A stretch of 64,000 nt of DNA, taken from IMG/VR virus record IMGVR_UViG_3300034106_004144, positions 1-64,000 of that record; one strand, written 5' to 3'. The stretch is from a virus. Numbering within the stretch: the stretch's first letter is position 1; each line of letters opens with the position of its first letter. This document shows positions 4,365-63,834 of this stretch, one piece after another. The notes beneath the pieces are model-generated. The model was given only the letters and a program-made list of their open reading frames with translations. It made no database searches and was not told the origin of the DNA. Position numbers and translations under genes: made by a program.

Positions 4365-5030
4365 TTAATAACCAAAACCACTGGTACCAGATGTTGAGGG
4401 GGCCAACGATTGAGGAACATAGCCAGTGTTAATTGTGTTTATTGTAAGAACCAACGTATCGTTAATCGCTTGCGTATATTCTCTATTAGCAAAACATTTT
4501 ATATTAAAAGATATGTCAATAGTTCCTTTTGTTTTATTTGGGTTTAAATTTGATTTACCAAAGTAATGAATGTCTAATCTATTTAAATTTAAAACTGTAT
4601 AACTTGCTGACATTTCTAATGATTGAAATGGATTTAAAATTATATTGGATCCGTTAACATATTCATTTAATCTACCAATAGTTAATTTACCAATCGTTTG
4701 GCGCCTAAAACTTAAAATATAATCTTCATATGTGTAATTACCAACAACTCTTGTTTCACTTAAAACCGAAGTTAAATTCGCTGAAGGATAACCATTTTCC
4801 CTTCGCATTCTAATTGAATTGAAATATAATCCGTTAAAATAGATCGGTTTATTATTTTTATTTAAAATATAAAATAATCCATCGTTATAGGATGTATAGG
4901 ATTTTCCTAATTCAGTTACGCTAACACCGTGTGTATTAATATAAAAATCAGCTTTTTTGATCATAAAATCAAAAACTGGTTGTTTTTCGTTTATCCTACT
5001 GTATAACTGTGTATATACTAATGAAGCCAT
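4365..5030 (-). CDS. Putative tail/baseplate structural protein (221 aa)
   Basis: No family was recognised. The sequence is Asn/Tyr/Ser/Thr-rich with short alternating hydrophobic stretches, suggesting a beta-rich virion protein. A Ser/Thr/Gly tail (APSTSGTSGFGY) ends it. It begins 1 base after the 277-residue gene and ends 4 bases before the nucleotidyltransferase gene, so it belongs to the fibre operon. No signal peptide or transmembrane segment was seen. Its role is inferred from position alone. Confidence 0.5.
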   Translation of the reverse strand: MASLVYTQLYSRINEKQPVFDFMIKKADFYINTHGVSVTELGKSYTSYNDGLFYILNKNNKPIYFNGLYFNSIRMRRENGYPSANLTSVLSETRVVGNYTYEDYILSFRRQTIGKLTIGRLNEYVNGSNIILNPFQSLEMSASYTVLNLNRLDIHYFGKSNLNPNKTKGTIDISFNIKCFANREYTQAINDTLVLTINTINTGYVPQSLAPSTSGTSGFGY

Positions 5031-54830: not shown

Positions 54831-57629
54831 TTATATTAATGGTTGTATTGGTGCAACATTACCATTTTGGTAGTTACCAAAACCCCTATTGTATGAATCC
54901 GTAATTGATTTAAGCCTAGAACCAATCAAATCTCTTGCACCATACATTTGATCCCAAGTAACAACTTTTCCATCGTCTGATTTTATTGTAATAACTCCAC
55001 TATGTTGAACTGCGTTTGTTGAGCCTCGACCACCAGAACCTGCGGCTCTTTCAGCGGCTGCTTGATCTATAAATTGAACCATATCTCCTTTGTTAAATTT
55101 AGCGTATGTACCGTCTTTATAAATAACACCATCGTCAAATGCTCCAGCGTCATAAGCATCTATACCAGCGTTAGCGGCATCTAGCCCAATAGATATGGCG
55201 GTTCCAACACCTGGGAATGTTGATGCAACACCCGATCCTAAAGCAAGTGCGGCTTGTCCCCAATCACCTTCAGCGGCTTGGCTAATAGCATCTATAATAC
55301 CTATAGCTAAGCCAACACCTGGTATTCTTTTAGCTATTTGTTTACCAACTAACTTACCAGCTGTTTGCGCCCCTAATTTAGCGCCAATTTTTTTACCAGC
55401 AACGGGTATACCTTTTTTAAGTAAAGCTTCTCCAGTCTTTAAACCCGCTTTAGTTGTAAAATTACTAAATGATTTATCACCTTCCATTTTGCCAGCTAAT
55501 TCAGATTGGGCGTTTTCGCCGTACATGCCTTTGAGAAAATCACTACTAGCTATTGCTTCTTGTTGCATTTTTAAACCAGCGTTTTTCATTTTATCACCCA
55601 AACCAAATGGTAATGAATCACCTATAATAGCAAGTAAAGCACCCATACCATTTTTTAATATTGGTGTTACAAATGTTATAATTTCACTGATAATTGGTAT
55701 CGCAACTTCTTTAAACAACAATCCAAGTGTTTTACCAACCTTAGTCATAAAACTACCGTCACCTTTAAATATCTCTTCGACTTTTTCAAAGATTGATTTT
55801 GCTTTATCTAATAATATTTTAAAACCTTCAGCCAAACCATTTGATCCCATGATTTCTTCGGTAACAAATTTAGCTATTCTGGTTCCAGCACCCTCAACCA
55901 TTTGTAAAAATGATTCAAAATCTGTACTACCAAATAATTTATTAAATACAGTTGAAAATCCTAACATAAATCTATCAACGATCATTGATAATCTTTCAAG
56001 AAGATTTTTTCTTTGTATTGCGGCATCTTCATTTTTCTTTCTAGCATCAATTATTGCCTTTAATTGGTTTTTGTCCGTGATATTTTCAAGTAATTTTGTT
56101 GTACCATCAGACATTCTTATTTCGTATTTACCCTGTTGGTTTAATTGCATTAAACTTGCAATACCTAAACGATCCTCTTCTTCTAAACCCATTAAACTAA
56201 AACCAGCTTTACCGAGTGCGGTCATTTTATCCGCAATCTTAGCTTGTTCTAAAGCAGTATTTTTAAGTTCATTATAATCTTGACCTAATGTTTCAGCAGC
56301 TATTTGGAGCATTTTTCTTTCAGCTGGTGGTATAATAAAATCTTTACCACTTTTGATTATAGCACCTTTTACTAAACCAGTAACTCTTTCAGCTAATTTA
56401 GCTGGATCATTCATGGATTCAAATGCGAGTTGCATTGGATCACCAAAATTCTCAGCAAATTTTCCACCTAACACTTGCATTTTTGCGGATGCCTCAACAG
56501 CTTTTTCTAAATCAGAAAAAGAATCTGTAAACGATTCGGTTGATTTTACAATATCAAATCTAATTGCGGTAGCTTTTGCCGCTAATTTTGTTAAATTATC
56601 TAAACCTCTACCAAAACCAATACCACTTAAACTTTCAACAAGACCTTTGTATGTTTTTAATACTTTTGTGGAGTTTAAATTCATTTTAGCGGCCACATTT
56701 CTGGCTTTATCGGTTAAGTTAATTGTTCTTTCGAGTGATATACCAATATTATCAAAGCTAGATGCTAATTCAGCGGCACCTTGTACGCCTAAATTTGTAC
56801 CTAAACCTAATTCAATTAATTGTTCAACCTCACGTTCGTTGAATAATCTATTCTTACCAGTGGTTTCACTAAATGTTGACATTAACATTGCAACATCTTT
56901 CATTGTTCCACCAAATTTCATGGCTGACAATGTAAGTGATGCAAAATTATTTAATAAACCCCTCGATTCTTCAGCCGTTAATCCAATATCAGCCGCTAAA
57001 TTTCCAACTGTACTTTGTATTTCTAAAAATGTATTAAAGGCTTTTTTAAGCGGAGCTAAAACCATCTTAACAAGAATGCTACCAACCTTTATTAAGGTTG
57101 ATGCGACAGTTCCTAATATAGAAAATACCGAACCTAATACGCTACCAATACTAACCATAACGTCAGATATAGCAGCGCCGACAGATCCCATTCTACCCAA
57201 CAATGGTATAGTTCTTCTCATTTGTTGTTGTGTAACCTTATTCATTTGGTTATCCAACTTCATTTTGTCTCTTTGTTTCGTTAAAGCATCAGCAAATGCT
57301 GTGTCACCTTTTTTTCTAGCTTTTAATATTTTTAACTCTAGTTTTTCAATTAAAGCATCATTTTCTTTAATTTTTTTACTAAACTCTAAATTTTGTTTTT
57401 GTTGTTCTCTGATTTTTTTACCAACACTAGCAACTCTCTTTAATACATTTAACCCTTTGACATCGGATTTTAACATATCTTTTCTTGCTTTACCAACGTT
57501 CATTTCTGCGGTGTATACATCATTAAGTATATCACGCATTTGTTCAGCATTAACGACACCAGCAGCTAGTGCTCGTTCAAGAACACCGCCAGCTTCAGTA
57601 AATTGCCTAAAAAGATCTCCTTGAGCCAT
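54831..57629 (-). CDS. Tail tape measure protein
   Basis: The tape measure sets tail length and is injected with the DNA. The 932 residues have a charged coiled-coil N-terminal part (about 60-135), a hydrophobic stretch near 150-200 (SIGSVLGSVFSILGTVASTL), long helical middle, and Gly/Ala-rich membrane-like segments near 770-840 (GVGLAIGIIDAISQAAEG). The C-terminal motif GVIYKDGTYAKFNKGDMVQF is common in tape measures. It follows the gp26-like chaperones and the 223-residue gene, the usual place. It is about 1.6 times T4 gp29 (590), suggesting a longer tail if the usual 1.5 angstrom per residue relation holds. Confidence 0.88.
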   Translation of the reverse strand: MAQGDLFRQFTEAGGVLERALAAGVVNAEQMRDILNDVYTAEMNVGKARKDMLKSDVKGLNVLKRVASVGKKIREQQKQNLEFSKKIKENDALIEKLELKILKARKKGDTAFADALTKQRDKMKLDNQMNKVTQQQMRRTIPLLGRMGSVGAAISDVMVSIGSVLGSVFSILGTVASTLIKVGSILVKMVLAPLKKAFNTFLEIQSTVGNLAADIGLTAEESRGLLNNFASLTLSAMKFGGTMKDVAMLMSTFSETTGKNRLFNEREVEQLIELGLGTNLGVQGAAELASSFDNIGISLERTINLTDKARNVAAKMNLNSTKVLKTYKGLVESLSGIGFGRGLDNLTKLAAKATAIRFDIVKSTESFTDSFSDLEKAVEASAKMQVLGGKFAENFGDPMQLAFESMNDPAKLAERVTGLVKGAIIKSGKDFIIPPAERKMLQIAAETLGQDYNELKNTALEQAKIADKMTALGKAGFSLMGLEEEDRLGIASLMQLNQQGKYEIRMSDGTTKLLENITDKNQLKAIIDARKKNEDAAIQRKNLLERLSMIVDRFMLGFSTVFNKLFGSTDFESFLQMVEGAGTRIAKFVTEEIMGSNGLAEGFKILLDKAKSIFEKVEEIFKGDGSFMTKVGKTLGLLFKEVAIPIISEIITFVTPILKNGMGALLAIIGDSLPFGLGDKMKNAGLKMQQEAIASSDFLKGMYGENAQSELAGKMEGDKSFSNFTTKAGLKTGEALLKKGIPVAGKKIGAKLGAQTAGKLVGKQIAKRIPGVGLAIGIIDAISQAAEGDWGQAALALGSGVASTFPGVGTAISIGLDAANAGIDAYDAGAFDDGVIYKDGTYAKFNKGDMVQFIDQAAAERAAGSGGRGSTNAVQHSGVITIKSDDGKVVTWDQMYGARDLIGSRLKSITDSYNRGFGNYQNGNVAPIQPLI

Positions 57630-58373: not shown

Positions 58374-58643
58374 TTATTTTCTTTTAGAATTAGCTTTGGC
58401 AACTTCTCTTTCTCTATGTTCCTTAACTTTTTTATTCTCTTCCATTAGTATATCAATAAAAGCCCTTCTCTCATAAACTGGCATATGTAATATATCAGCG
58501 TAGCTAAAATTACCGTGTTTTATGAGAATGTAGAACTCATAGAGTATATCTTTCTTATAAGTCGAGGTAAGGCCAAAGAAATTTTGAGGTAATCGGAAGT
58601 TCACCAAAAAAAAATTCACCACTTGGCGCTTGGATTGATACAT
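58374..58643 (-). CDS. Frameshifted continuation of the gp26-like chaperone (89-aa ORF)
   Basis: The second half (KDILYEFYILIKHGNFSYAD, then ILHMPVYERRAFIDILMEEN) looks like a conserved tail assembly chaperone C-terminal segment. The ORF overlaps the 251-residue gene by 89 bases in the +1 frame and its first Met has no convincing initiation context. A run of nine T residues (58606-58614) lies in the overlap, so the segment may be expressed as an extension of the gp26-like protein, as with lambda gpG/gpGT. If translated alone it would give 89 residues. An indel in the T-run is another explanation. Confidence 0.65.
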   Translation of the reverse strand: MYQSKRQVVNFFLVNFRLPQNFFGLTSTYKKDILYEFYILIKHGNFSYADILHMPVYERRAFIDILMEENKKVKEHREREVAKANSKRK

Positions 58644-59310
58644 TAAGATCTAAACCTGGTTCATTATCATTAATGTACTTTCTAAGAGCCCCAGAATCAC
58701 CAACTGGCATCTGATCAATAAATGATTGAATTTGTCCTCTATCTCTTATACCATCAATTTCTGTAACTTGAGCTGTTAATCTCATGGTTAATAATTGAGA
58801 AATAGCATTTTGACCAAGCTTCTTTCTTCTAGCTTCATCTTCTTTAACCAGTTTTTCATCTTCATCGGCTGTTAAATATTTAAATTTAACTTTCTTTTTA
58901 CTTCTTGGTAAGAAAAAATCACATTCACCATTTTCATCTGGATTAATAGAAATTTCTTTAGCCTGGAATTGACTGATATCAATTTCGGTTTCAAATCTTT
59001 CCCCAGTCTTAGGGTCAGATAACTCAACTGGATACATTTCACCATAACCAGTAGCTCTTAAAAAGAAGAGAATTGCGTTTTTATCACCAGAAAGCATTTG
59101 ACCAGCTTTTAAATCTTGGTCGATTACTTTTTTGTCTAACAAAACGTCAATAACTTTACCACTCTGTAAAAGGTTTGGTGATGTCAAGATGTTTTCATCA
59201 GCAGCTGTTAAGTAAGCCACTTTAACAGTTGATTTTTTATTTTTGTAAAATTTACCTTGCGAAGGCAAAGAAATCACGTCATGCGCTGGTTCCATAAATG
59301 AATTATCCAT
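58555..59310 (-). CDS. gp26: Baseplate/tail assembly chaperone, T4 gp26-like
   Basis: The 251-residue product has the layout of the T4 gp26 family: LPSQGKFY at residues 15-22, then VKVAYLTAADENILTSPNLL and MLSGDKNAILFFLRATGYGE. Many family members have a CxxC pair after this; here the equivalent loop reads SDPKTGERFE, so a metal site is absent. It is just upstream of the tape measure region, as in T4-type tails. Its stop lies 89 bases into the next ORF, with a T9 slip site between (see findings). Role in tail initiation is known for the family and inferred here. Confidence 0.78.
   Translation of the reverse strand: MDNSFMEPAHDVISLPSQGKFYKNKKSTVKVAYLTAADENILTSPNLLQSGKVIDVLLDKKVIDQDLKAGQMLSGDKNAILFFLRATGYGEMYPVELSDPKTGERFETEIDISQFQAKEISINPDENGECDFFLPRSKKKVKFKYLTADEDEKLVKEDEARRKKLGQNAISQLLTMRLTAQVTEIDGIRDRGQIQSFIDQMPVGDSGALRKYINDNEPGLDLNVSIQAPSGEFFFGELPITSKFLWPYLDL
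58606..58614 (-). promoter_or_regulatory. T9 candidate ribosomal frameshift site
   Basis: The coding strand reads GAA TTT TTT TTT GGT in the gp26-like frame. Slipping +1 or -2 on the nine T residues enters the downstream frame at TTG GTG AAC. The upstream frame stops about 50 bases later. No strong stimulatory hairpin was recognised downstream. Confidence 0.5.
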
Positions 59311-59429: not shown

Positions 59430-59831
59430 ATGGCTAAAAAGAAAAGTAAAATCGGTAAAATGTTTAAAAAAATGAATGGTACATCAAGTCTTGAGACAAC
59501 CTTTGGTGAATTACTAACTTCGATGGGTGTGTCATTTGAACCACATTTTATCTTTAAAAATAGGGAATATGATTTTTTATTAACTGATTACAATATATTG
59601 GTTGAAACCCATGGATGTTTTTTTCATTGCTGTAAAACGCACAACCCAGAACCAAAATACGCTTTCCAAAGAAAAAATTTAAAAAACGATCAACATAAAG
59701 TTAAGATTGTTAAGTTTGATAAGACTTACACTTTATTGGTGATTTGGGAACATGAAATGAAAGAAACTAAAAACGTTAAAAAAAAGATAAACGAATTTAT
59801 CAACAAATACGGTAATCTATTGAATGGATAA
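59430..59831 (+). CDS. Vsr-like (EDxHD-type) endonuclease, only plus-strand gene
   Basis: The 133-residue protein resembles very short patch repair endonucleases and the related EDxHD homing endonucleases. It has Glu22 in LETTFGELL, Asp48 in REYDFLL, the block ETHGCFFHCC (59-68, cf. HGCFWH in Vsr), Asp87 in LKNDQHK and a WEHEM motif (106-110). Such proteins cut DNA at mismatches or specific sites. It is transcribed against all other genes and lies between tail tube and gp26-like genes, which fits a freestanding mobile endonuclease. It could equally be a repair or genome-processing nuclease. The minus-strand terminator of the tube gene abuts its stop codon. Confidence 0.75.
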   Translation: MAKKKSKIGKMFKKMNGTSSLETTFGELLTSMGVSFEPHFIFKNREYDFLLTDYNILVETHGCFFHCCKTHNPEPKYAFQRKNLKNDQHKVKIVKFDKTYTLLVIWEHEMKETKNVKKKINEFINKYGNLLNG

Positions 59832-59897: not shown

Positions 59898-60386
59898 TTA
59901 GTATACCAAGATACATCTATCTGGTCTAAGAGTAGCTGTGATTTCAGCAATATCTTCTGCACTGTAATCCAATGAACCAAAGTCAACGTTGGTCAAGAAT
60001 GTTCCCTGAAGGATCCATTTTTCAACAACAACACCAGTTGGGTCTAACATCTCAAGTTCGATGTCTTTCTTATAACCAGCTGCGTAACCCATACGACCTG
60101 TAACAGATTCGGCATGTAGACGAACCCACTCCATTAACGCTTGAGCGGCTGATGGCCCAATAGGGTCTTTAAATGTAACGTCAATAGATTCCCAGTTAAA
60201 TCTACCAGCTACATAAGTTGATGTATTCAAAAACGGGATTTCAACCTCACCAATGGTGATCTTAGGTCTTGACGTTGAAATTACAAACCATTCGTTAATA
60301 CCCAATGAACTTGGAAATCTTAGGATAAACCTGTTTTGTTTCTTCGGTTCGTAAGGTACAGGCATTTTCATTAATAAGTTCGCCAT
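59898..60386 (-). CDS. gp19: Tail tube protein, gp19-like
   Basis: This is the major tube subunit stacked into hexameric rings inside the sheath. The 162 residues match T4 gp19 (163) in length and pattern: NRFILRFPSSLGINEWFVIS, then ITIGEVEIPFLNTSTYVAGR, SIDVTFKDPIGPSAAQALME, and IELEMLDPTGVVVEKWILQG. It follows the sheath gene across a 355-base non-coding region with three late-motif copies, and has its own terminator, consistent with very high and separate expression. Assignment is firm. Confidence 0.93.
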   Translation of the reverse strand: MANLLMKMPVPYEPKKQNRFILRFPSSLGINEWFVISTSRPKITIGEVEIPFLNTSTYVAGRFNWESIDVTFKDPIGPSAAQALMEWVRLHAESVTGRMGYAAGYKKDIELEMLDPTGVVVEKWILQGTFLTNVDFGSLDYSAEDIAEITATLRPDRCILVY

Positions 60387-60741: not shown

Positions 60742-63700
60742 TTAGATATTATCGAATGATACGCTTGTTGGTGTAACCACGAATTCCAATTCAATGAATT
60801 CCAATGTTGGTGTTGGTTTAAGGAAGATTTTACCTCTAAGTGTATTTCTATCATTATCCTCAACTTCATTCACCAATGAAACTCTAAAGTCGGTTAAACC
60901 TCTTTCTTTTCTGATGTTATCCAATATTGGGTTAACAAGTGATAAGAATTGACTTCTAACCTGCGCATCATTTGGATCAAACAATAATCTGTTTGCTACT
61001 GCTACAATTAATTTTCTTGCTTGTAACAATAATCTTCTGATGTTTAATCTGTTCAATGCACTATCTCTCAATTGAAGGTTTCTGTTACCCCAAATTACAT
61101 TTCCTACGTCAGAGAATGTAGCGATAGGGTTAATTCTACCTGGGTAAAGAATGTCCCTGCTTTCTTGATCCAATGCGATACGAGCTCTGATACAGTTAAC
61201 GATACCTCTATTGTAACCTGCGGTTGCAAACCAAGGATGTGCTACGTTATCAGTAAAGGCTAAGTTTCTTACAACCTCAGCTGTTGGTGGGATGTAAAGG
61301 TTAGCATTATTCTCGGTATCTGAAATTTGAATCCAAGGATAGTATACAGCGGTATAGTTAGAATCGATTTCTGTTGTTTCCAATTCATCGATGATATCAT
61401 TAGGGAATAACCAATCTTCTGTGTTAGCAGCGTTGTTATTACCAATTAACTTGATATCAGGTAAAGTTGGTAAGTAAATTGAATCTAATCTTTTTTCTTC
61501 AACTATTTCAATGGTGTCTCTAACCAACTCTGTGTTGTTAAGTATATCGATACCAGGTGTAGCTAAGATGTTGATTACTGTTTGTTCTGGATTTTCAAAA
61601 GTTTTAACACCATACAAGTATGAGTAGTAATCTGAAGTACCAAACAAGTCACCATATTCAACACTTGTGAATGTATCAAATCCAGCGGCTACGAAACCAT
61701 TTCTACCGATTTTATAATCATCACCATTAGTTCTTTGTTCTCTGTAAATATCCCAACCATCAAATCCTCCAGACAATAAAGCTGTGAATTTTCTTGTTTT
61801 AATGTCGTGATATGGGTGAGTTAACGTTGAAGCAATGACAACTGGATCAACAAAAGTACCAACACCAGCTGCAAATACATTATTTCCATTTGTATCTACA
61901 ATTGTACCAGCGTTAATATCCAAGTGGAAACCTTTTGTTTTAGTTGTCCAATCTAAACCATCATTGTAAGCATTATCACCAGTTAAAGAAACTTTACCTT
62001 TAAATTGTAATAAGTCAGCATCAAAACCGTACTCAAGGTCGGTAAAACCTAAGTAAATCTTTCTAACTTTATCACCAAGAGAAAATATCGGTGTAGAGAA
62101 TGGTGGGTTTACGATTAATTCACCTGGAGCGTAGTATTTTGTTTTGTAAGATAATTCAGGTACACCGCAGAAATCAGCTTCAGTTGAACCTGTTCCAAAT
62201 GTTCTAAACTCATATCCTTCAAAACCTGAAGCAACCGCATCAATTGGGGCGTTTTCAGCCATTTCAACAACCACATAAGAACTTCTTAATGGGTATTTGT
62301 TGTCAATGGTACCAATTCTTCTACCAATGTAATTGTCTTGCGACTCGTCCATAGATACAGATAAAAATCTTTCAAGGAAGAATGGGTTCTTATCACTATC
62401 AGCAAATGCTCTAATGTAAACGTCAAAAGTTTTTCTGTCTAAATCAACGTTACCGATTGAAACTTTAATATCCGTGTTAGCGTTACTACCATCAGATATA
62501 GATATAAATCTAAATAATCTTTGTGGTAAACCACCTCTTAACTCAGATACGAAAAATGGTGTTGCGGGTGATTGAAATTGGAATTTTAAATGATCCCAAG
62601 TATTAATTGGTATCAAATCAAAGTGCAAACCTTTAATTTCATTAAAGTTCCAACCTTTCTTTATAACAGAATCGTAAACTTCTTCAACAAATAAGAAAGC
62701 ATCTTTATCAAACGCCTGTGTACCTAAAACATTTTTAATATAGTTTTTCTTGGTTTTATCAAGCGAAACGGTATAAGAGAAATTTGTACCACCAGTAGTT
62801 GTACCAGTAATTTCAAAAGTCGCATACGGGTTAGTTAAAGCAGCATCAAATTGGTCATAAGCTACTGTTGTTGAATCAACATTGTAACCCAATACGTTCG
62901 AAATATATTGACCCCTACTTCTTAATGTTGCAACAGTCTTTTTATGGTATTTTTGATTTGGTGAACAAACGTAATCGTAAACAACTAATTTAATCTTACC
63001 AGAATAAATTGTCGCTGTGGTACCAGTGATATCGTAGGCAAACAATGCAAAAGAGGTTCCTTCGTATTGATCAGATGTTTCATTAAAGGTAAATTCTTTT
63101 ATCAAGATATCATCTGTTCTGTCAGCAACTGGAATACCAATAGCCAATTCATACGCATCTAAGAAAGCGGGTGTTGCTGGGCCAGTGCCAGTTAATACCT
63201 GAGCATTTCTATCTGTAACAAGTGCTGTTTGTTCAGAGCTGTCCAAAATACCCCAATAAGATACATTGTTTTTATACCAATCTTTTAGAGTGTAGTTTGT
63301 TACATTGAAGAAGTTATAATAAGCCGTATCGAATTTAGTTGTATCAACACCAGTTAATGTTGATATATGATCAATAACCTCTGTTGAGGTACCAGATAAT
63401 ACAAAAGTACCAGGTTGACCAACAGGTACATCGATATCAACCGTAAAGTCAAATACATAAGTTGTATCTGTATACGCTAATGTGTTTTTATTACATGTTC
63501 CTAAAGTCCTAATTGCATAACCCATACCAGCATCATAGCCAGAAAGACCCAATACACGGGTTACAAATAACTGATTTGATTGACTTAAGTACGATTTTGC
63601 AATGTACGGTAATTCATATTTTACGATTTGAGTGTTTCTAAATCTTTCTGGGCTAGTACCACCAAAACTAACTTTAAATTCATCATAATTTCTGATGAAA

Positions 63701-63834
63701 ATAGGTTGGAAGGCAGGCCCTTTCTTTGTTTCACCCACTAATCCTAGGGTTGTAACACCAACTGTCTCAGTAGTAAATGTTAAATCTTTTTCTGAGGTAT
63801 AGACACCTGGTGATGCATAAACTTTGTTTGCCAT
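60742..63834 (-). CDS. gp18: Tail sheath protein, gp18-like
   Basis: The sheath contracts to drive the tube through the envelope. The N-terminus ANKVYASPGVYTSEKDLTF and the next block TLGLVGETKKGPAFQPIFIR are typical sheath features. The C-terminal core is also conserved in type: LNIRRLLLQARKLIVAVANR, then LLFDPNDAQVRSQFLSLVNP and a FRVSLVNEVEDNDRNTLRGK stretch. The 1030 residues greatly exceed T4 gp18 (659). The extra length is in the middle and suggests larger surface-exposed domains. A late-motif copy is about 45 bases upstream, and a terminator follows. Assignment is firm. Confidence 0.93.
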   Translation of the reverse strand: MANKVYASPGVYTSEKDLTFTTETVGVTTLGLVGETKKGPAFQPIFIRNYDEFKVSFGGTSPERFRNTQIVKYELPYIAKSYLSQSNQLFVTRVLGLSGYDAGMGYAIRTLGTCNKNTLAYTDTTYVFDFTVDIDVPVGQPGTFVLSGTSTEVIDHISTLTGVDTTKFDTAYYNFFNVTNYTLKDWYKNNVSYWGILDSSEQTALVTDRNAQVLTGTGPATPAFLDAYELAIGIPVADRTDDILIKEFTFNETSDQYEGTSFALFAYDITGTTATIYSGKIKLVVYDYVCSPNQKYHKKTVATLRSRGQYISNVLGYNVDSTTVAYDQFDAALTNPYATFEITGTTTGGTNFSYTVSLDKTKKNYIKNVLGTQAFDKDAFLFVEEVYDSVIKKGWNFNEIKGLHFDLIPINTWDHLKFQFQSPATPFFVSELRGGLPQRLFRFISISDGSNANTDIKVSIGNVDLDRKTFDVYIRAFADSDKNPFFLERFLSVSMDESQDNYIGRRIGTIDNKYPLRSSYVVVEMAENAPIDAVASGFEGYEFRTFGTGSTEADFCGVPELSYKTKYYAPGELIVNPPFSTPIFSLGDKVRKIYLGFTDLEYGFDADLLQFKGKVSLTGDNAYNDGLDWTTKTKGFHLDINAGTIVDTNGNNVFAAGVGTFVDPVVIASTLTHPYHDIKTRKFTALLSGGFDGWDIYREQRTNGDDYKIGRNGFVAAGFDTFTSVEYGDLFGTSDYYSYLYGVKTFENPEQTVINILATPGIDILNNTELVRDTIEIVEEKRLDSIYLPTLPDIKLIGNNNAANTEDWLFPNDIIDELETTEIDSNYTAVYYPWIQISDTENNANLYIPPTAEVVRNLAFTDNVAHPWFATAGYNRGIVNCIRARIALDQESRDILYPGRINPIATFSDVGNVIWGNRNLQLRDSALNRLNIRRLLLQARKLIVAVANRLLFDPNDAQVRSQFLSLVNPILDNIRKERGLTDFRVSLVNEVEDNDRNTLRGKIFLKPTPTLEFIELEFVVTPTSVSFDNI

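Follow-up and report, generated by a model that had tools for sequence, protein, structure and literature searches.

A probable programmed +1 frameshift in the gp26-like tail assembly chaperone gene of an apparently T4-like virus

The tail chaperone of phage Mu involves -2 slippage, and prfB uses a +1 frameshift in which CUU slips to UUU, with UGA in the A site and a Shine-Dalgarno sequence approximately 3 nt away. Frameshifting tail assembly chaperone (TAC) genes have reportedly been described in T4-like phages by Vladimirov, Gautam and Davidson (2022, Virology 566:9-15). One paper gives the -1 direction for the gpG/gpGT shift of phage lambda, describes G-T frameshifting as widely conserved except in T4, and calls the counterpart in the haloarchaeal myovirus HSTV-2 'very likely +1' (PMC5009743). 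A further paper lists T4 gp26 and gp51 as hub assembly chaperones, with gp51 absent from the particle and gp26 debated (PMC3004832). According to two papers, there are T4-like phages that, rather than frameshifting, have one short TAC gene and one long, fused one (PMC10885494, citing Vladimirov et al. 2022), and poly-T -1 signals are found in TAC-N genes of T4-like phages (PMC12846349, citing Vladimirov et al. 2022). Given the cases reported in PMC10885494, PMC12846349 and PMC5009743, a frameshifting TAC is a kind of gene that is already known.

The locus considered here lies in the window, by which we mean the whole stretch of 64,000 nucleotides of viral DNA that was analysed (positions 1 to 64,000 of IMG/VR record IMGVR_UViG_3300034106_004144). 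A 251-aa ORF (59310-58555, minus strand) and an 89-aa ORF (58643-58374, minus strand) share 89 bases (58555-58643, minus strand), just as the initial annotation had claimed, and counted from a run of nine T the second ORF is in the +1 frame relative to the first, a relation equally reached by -2. The accompanying statement that all other overlaps in the window are of 4-41 bases is true only with other starts, as first-ATG starts give a 56-base same-strand overlap at 4365-4420. The 251-aa product (short form, TAC-N; 58555..59310, minus strand), a putative gp26-like tail assembly chaperone, terminates in frame 0 at UAA (58557-58555) and matches PF12322 (T4_baseplate) with 32.4 bits, above the curated cut-off of 24.5, and PHROG_150 (baseplate hub) with E=2e-10. 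The +1-frame part would provide a gp51-like C-terminal extension (TAC-C; 58374..58577, minus strand) of 67 codons and a stop, its start at 58577 being counted from the first codon after a slip on UUUC, and the predicted long form (TAC-NC; 58374..59310, minus strand) would have 311 aa. Modelled with 55 sequences, this fused protein (P0001, +1 slip on UUU C) gave a mean pLDDT of 94.0 and a pTM of 0.87, with three helices past the junction. Its closest viral models were two uncharacterised phage proteins, followed by T4-like hub proteins, among them the baseplate hub subunit of SP-15; a PDB search returned nothing at E<=0.001, and no Z>=5 among the chains examined. The 89-aa ORF matches PHROG_634 directly only weakly (E=0.03), and none of the 22 members of our extension profile, A6, matches PHROG_634 at 0.01. 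A6 itself matches, at 96.6%, a profile of the extensions of -1 phages together with the C-terminus of T4 gp51. T4 gp26 consists of the T4_baseplate domain alone, and T4 gp51 of T4_baseplate over residues 1-201 and PHROG_634 over residues 147-246. As T4 gp51 is a gp26-like domain with the same kind of extension, the window pair is, by predicted homology, a tail assembly chaperone pair, the counterpart of lambda gpG/gpGT and of T4 gp26/gp51. T4 has two genes for what the phage of the window seems to make from one, and the virus itself seems to be a T4-like virus of bacteria.

The initial annotation had placed the chaperone upstream of the tape measure gene, and gene order together with the PF12322 and PHROG_150 matches bears this out, with the tape measure gene as a candidate. 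The putative chaperone gene sits between the gene for a gp19-like tail tube protein (59898..60386, minus strand; PHROG_4542, E=4e-28) and that for a tape measure protein candidate of 932 aa (54831..57629, minus strand), with the tube gene and the tail sheath gene (60742..63834, minus strand; PHROG_23, E=5e-59) upstream and a single 223-aa ORF separating the chaperone pair from the candidate downstream. The candidate is so named for its position and because the corresponding place is annotated as a tape measure gene in immuto, SP-15 and LIS04; profile searches gave the candidate no tape-measure family match of its own. Its residues 726-844 (55098-55454, minus strand) match PHROG_18972 (unknown, E=2e-15) as well as PHROGs named peptidase (6e-15) and endolysin (1e-10), and may form a membrane or enzyme domain. 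Between the tube and chaperone genes, on the opposite strand, a 133-aa ORF (59430-59831, plus strand) matches PHROG_13076 (endonuclease, E=1e-9), with a Vsr match below cut-off, and is possibly a mobile endonuclease inserted into the tail operon. No tRNA genes were found in the window, and a host search gave no match among genome contigs and none among plasmids.

The frame relation was surveyed in a first set of 174 unique junctions, distinct over approximately -150 to +45 of the stop, from viral-contig scans and phage records; three of the scans matched at least 80 loci each, and the counts of the survey are those among the matches listed. Six loci without a complete gp26 match were left out, and 169 of the 174 junctions had at least 90 nt of alternative frame past the stop, the others (L014, L073, L093, L165 and L180) being too short. 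A mechanical frame rule placed 152 of the 169 in +1 and 17 in the other frame; on inspection, three of the 17 (L149, L218 and L235) had their homologous sequence in +1, which gives 155 +1 and 14 -1 junctions, and all 45 further unique junctions beyond the first set were in +1. Among the matches listed, all 200 usable unique junctions of the broad group to which the window belongs overlap in +1, and the two separate, non-overlapping genes that the initial annotation had considered for the relatives were not encountered. Of the second frames at these junctions, 199 match A6, itself built from 22 sequences of this same +1 group, at E<=0.01 (among the matches listed), the sole exception being that of RM378 (L158). 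Many of the 200 junctions are close kin, with 190 distinct over the last 90 nt before the stop, and the sets of 63 and 14 representatives are therefore the fairer numbers. At all 14 -1 junctions, which are from jumbo phages and one cyanophage and are those taken from longer match lists (L162 and L247 being near-copies), the frame changes at the same place as in the +1 group. A canonical U-UUU-UUC/U heptamer is present in 13 of the 14; in L026, which is -1 in frame and has its own ATG, it is absent from the last 60 nt. The second ORF of the window, being in +1, does not fit the canonical -1 frameshift (X XXY YYZ), which has its second ORF in -1. A quick tree of 89 gp26 domains, in which T4, L158, L026, L250 and L251 have long branches, has a set of 70 +1 rows, with an SH-aLRT of 97, and a separate set of 11 -1 rows, with one of 96; the +1/-1 label takes at least three parsimony changes, only one of which is forced by well-supported branches. 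In the six annotated +1 isolates examined (L024, L158, L161, L160, L027 and L025), the extension was missed, shortened or split off in annotation: only a short 3' piece is annotated in immuto, RM378 and SP-15, the extension is un-annotated in LIS04 and GXN1, and it is a separate gene in Mel-JY01.

The +1 junctions share a site as well as a frame. A Phe-Phe/Leu codon pair, UUU-(U/C)UU-(U/C) or a close variant and usually UUUUUUUGGCC, is present at 193 of the 200, as TTTTTTTGG in 107, TTTCTTTGG in 32, TTTTTTCGT in 18, TTTTTTTAC in 13 and other sequences in 23 (among the matches listed). In frame 0 the pair reads UUU-UUU, UUU-CUU, UUC-UUU or a close variant, followed by UGG, UAC, CGN or similar. 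The motif is missing from seven junctions (L021, L022, L094, L095, L097, L160 and L161, comprising SP-15, LIS04 and five contigs), and in L023 (TTTCTATTC) and L293 (TTTTTCTGG) it fits only with a slip one codon earlier. L021, L022, L094, L095 and L097 have a longer gp26-like ORF without the FFWP site and a second ORF still in +1, and L094 has a +1-frame ATG just before the stop. In the window, the most likely shift site is UUU CUU UGG CC (UUUCUUUGGCC; 58581-58571, minus strand), which begins 33 bases past the start of the T9 run, reads F L W P in frame 0 and F F G L in frame +1, and presents the sense codon UGG in the A site. Across 63 representatives with less than 75% nucleotide identity, drawn from 148 motif-bearing junctions, TTT accounts for 115 of the 118 Phe codons at the site, against 76.9 expected from the usage of each locus. 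GGAG or GAGG occurs between -40 and -12 in 41 of these representatives against 23.7 expected, and in 39 of the 41 the core begins between -39 and -28; a Shine-Dalgarno-like element was nevertheless rejected as a core signal, since it is not universal (L265-L278, for example, have none close to the site) and is weak in the window. Folding of the 30 nt that precede the site is more stable than that of synonymous shuffles (-5.6 vs -3.3 kcal/mol, p=6e-8; last 24 nt, p=2e-4; control stretch, p=0.79). With no single register or covariation, and with the window ordinary (z=-0.4), an upstream hairpin was not accepted as a signal and is kept as a lead. At the end of T4 gene 26 (L078), an inverted repeat, CTCAAAG-AGTT-CTTTGAG, lies just before the start of gene 25 and occupies the place of the slip site of relatives.

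The T9 run (58606..58614, minus strand; A9 on the plus strand), at which the initial annotation had located the frameshift, is a second candidate slip point or part of a cis-signal. A gp26 peptide search, with query peptides that exclude the T run, gave 22 loci, of which 19 have exactly nine T and a +1 frame open through the overlap; the remaining three are L018, which is cut short of the site, and L021 and L022 (37% and 36% identical), which are without the element. Scanning for the exact 20-mer TTTTTTTTTGGTGAACTTCC gave 50 stretches in viral contigs, chosen for carrying it and partly the same loci as in the gp26 search. This alignment with relatives and the scan make it very unlikely that the run really has eight T in a single fused gene, the alternative raised at the outset. 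In 29 unique clade sequences, T9-GGTGAACTTCC is shared and always lies 33 nt (start to start) before TTTCTTT. Over the 200 codons before the site in 28 sequences, 6 of 74 degenerate codons for invariant residues are themselves invariant, and these six, TTT TTT TTT GGT GAA CTT (TTTTTTTTTGGTGAACTT; 58597..58614, minus strand; frame 0 F-F-F-G-E-L), form the sole codon-invariant run there; among 14 lineages of less than 85% identity, 10 of the 74 are invariant, six of them in the T9 element. Of the Leu codons 14% are CTT, and of the Phe codons 37% are TTC. By this codon-level invariance, T9 is evidently under strong selection at the nucleotide level, and the earlier attention to it was as such justified. 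The window has fewer T9 runs than expected (4 on both strands vs a mean of 27.9 in dinucleotide shuffles), and long homopolymers thus look selected against. A regulatory DNA motif was considered and rejected: T9-GGTGAAC occurs once in the 96,763-base record, and, with 3 mismatches allowed, the 18-mer matches the window in 3 places, one of them the element itself (shuffle mean 0.96, with 5 of 100 reaching 3). GGTGAAC (58599..58605, minus strand; -24 to -18 of the shift site) possibly acts as a Shine-Dalgarno-like element, its predicted pairing being weak in the window; in L111 it lies within GGAGGTGAAC at -25 to -19. In the sister locus L264 there is no T9; the site itself carries T7, and GGAG lies at -21 to -18. 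The change of site and the gain of T9 thus fall on the same branch, so that the signal could have moved; searches with L081 and L264 for relatives between clade and sister returned only the contigs of the queries.

Codon-position diversity in the clade peaks at frame-0 position 3 before the site (0.48, in an upstream row that includes three T9 columns) and at position 1 past the stop (0.45), and this shift is what a change of frame leaves behind. From T9 on to the site, variation is at position 3 and spares position 2, which points to constraint on frame 0 there and not on the +1 frame; a variable linker in a product shifted at T9 would look the same. Avoidance of ATA, a +1 stop, between T9 and the site (0 of 29) was set aside as not significant, because only 16% of the Ile codons of the clade are ATA.

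It is possible, though less likely than not, that the clade shifts at T9 itself, either through a +1 slip of the ribosome or through loss of one T by RNA polymerase (to T8, giving ...GEFFLVNFRLPQNFFGLTS...), with the old UUUCUUUGG remaining as a relic; such a slip implies the peptides YINDNEPGLDLNVSIQAPSGEFFLVNFR and LPQNFFGLTSTYK. In the 200 codons preceding the site no run other than T9-GGTGAACTT is codon-invariant, as dual coding of F-F-L-V-N-F would lead one to expect; the rarity of T9 elsewhere in the window and its gain on the branch where T7 became TTTCTTT are likewise in favour of this reading. However, the stretch from T9 to the site is conserved in frame 0 but differs among sequences at several residues of the +1 frame (R/Q/L/P and others), ribosomal +1 slippage at UUU-GGU would need UUU to re-pair with UUG, and L024, L101, L111 and L150, from at least three lineages, keep the +1 fusion, TTTCTTTGGCC and an identical 11-mer without T9. 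It is because these T9-less lineages keep TTTCTTTGGCC, and because of the frame-0 constraint, that we prefer a slip at UUUCUUU, although dual coding would by itself suffice to keep UUUCUUUGG invariant in the clade. FFLVNFR, the peptide suggested earlier as a check of the junction, is diagnostic only for a slip at T9 and is tryptically the end of a longer peptide. The T9 run also raises the prospect of a sequencing or assembly error, or of a decayed pseudogene, such that there would be one gene or two dead ones. Homopolymers are generally error-prone, but with nine T in 19 of 22 loci, most relatives in +1 without any T9, and codon-position constraint in both frames, this is scarcely credible.

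The direction of the shift and the entry into the second frame can be weighed on the same variants. The initial annotation had allowed for a +1 or a -2 slip, and the frame relation from T9 holds for both; re-pairing after a -2, Mu-like ribosomal slippage is possible on T7 and T9 runs. At UUC-UUU-UGG (L107, L108, L109 and L120) and UUU-CUU-UGG, in contrast, re-pairing is possible at +1 (UUU to UUU/UUC; CUU to UUU) and not at -2, and the T-run there is too short for polymerase slippage. As these variants re-pair at +1 only, +1 is the likelier direction and -2 slippage very improbable. That the extension is an independent protein started inside the gp26 gene, for example at GUG 58604-58602 right after T9, is improbable, if less so. 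TTG-GTG is invariant in the clade behind a U-rich leader, the start-like codons ATG, GTG and TTG are present upstream of the site in the +1 frame of the window, and some jumbo phages (L159, L244 and L248) have an ATG at or near the stop. Against such a start, in 27 of the 63 representatives the +1 frame is free of ATG, GTG and TTG between the last stop and site+18 (in 49 it is free of ATG), and T4 gp51 has the extension fused to a gp26-like domain. Moreover, an upstream +1-frame stop ends within 12 nt of the site in 31 of the 193 motif-bearing junctions and 2 nt before it in 11, so that in those 11 the +1 frame cannot be entered earlier and only a start further downstream, which is formally possible, is left.

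By all the sequence evidence, this would be a real and conserved programmed frameshift of the tail assembly chaperone, and recoding into the +1 frame by some route is very probable. The initial proposal of a programmed shift that gives a C-terminally extended form thus stands at the level of sequence, whereas T9 as its slip point is not established, the family site lying 33 bases on. In the mechanism that we favour, most ribosomes would stay in frame 0, terminate at the UAA (58557-58555) and yield the short form (TAC-N), and a minority would slip by +1 near the end and make the long form (TAC-NC) with its helical, gp51-like extension. The slip would most likely take place at UUU-CUU-UGG (58581-58573), by movement of tRNA-Phe from UUU to UUC or of tRNA-Leu from CUU to UUU, and the upstream T9-GGUGAACUU element may act as an enhancer. 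By analogy with lambda gpG/gpGT, both forms may coat the tape measure protein, with the extension helping to initiate tube assembly. The sequences show the +1 relation and its conservation, the class of site and the constraint on the codons of the T9 element; that slippage occurs, how efficient it is, at which codon it happens and that the proteins act as chaperones is what we infer from them. We consider this whole explanation, from a short form made by default and a minority +1 slip to the enhancer and the chaperone function, somewhat likelier to be right than wrong; against it, the strongest upstream nucleotide constraint in the clade falls at T9-GGUGAACUU. We would also suggest, tentatively, that the direction changed (-1 vs +1) at the same codon pair within one chaperone family, and that in the clade of the window a second signal was in addition acquired, or the signal moved to, 33 bases upstream, where the invariant U9-GGUGAACUU, slipping on the ribosome or RNA polymerase, lies near the Shine-Dalgarno-like element of many relatives. 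If this is true, the change of direction and the U9-GGUGAACUU signal are a visible hop of a recoding site in evolution.

T4 gp26 and gp51 are long-studied hub assembly proteins whose function is unclear, and one frameshifting gene in their relatives links both to the lambda gpG/gpGT chaperones, a published idea that is extended here to a large +1 group. In the literature covered, in which Vladimirov et al. 2022 is represented by the papers citing it, we found no description of a +1 shift in this gene of T4-like phages; the T9 element, the shared site and the large +1 group look like a new variant. In this family, signals for -1 and for +1 can be compared as nature provides them, at a homologous pair of codons. 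The locus resembles prfB in its +1 direction and in a slip from CUU to UUU, but it has neither an A-site stop nor a Shine-Dalgarno sequence approximately 3 nt upstream: prfB combines UGA in the A site with a near Shine-Dalgarno sequence, the window has UGG and a GGTGA starting at -24, and the Shine-Dalgarno-like cores of the family, where present, start mostly 28-39 nt upstream. The +1 direction would also be shared with HSTV-2. Like the frameshifting TAC genes of other T4-like phages, the locus would make TAC-N and TAC-NC from one gene with a poly-T signal near its 3' end, but their signal, as cited in PMC12846349, is -1, and that of the window is +1 at UUU-(U/C)UU-(U/C). The likeness to lambda gpG/gpGT is one of arrangement, with no sequence relation shown here: a place upstream of the tape measure gene and two forms from a frameshift near the end, which in lambda is -1. 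T4 gp26/gp51 (PF12322, PHROG_150, PHROG_634) resemble the window pair in having a short protein that is the T4_baseplate domain and a long one that adds a helical extension to it; unlike the two separate and divergent genes of T4, the window has one gene and a putative frameshift.
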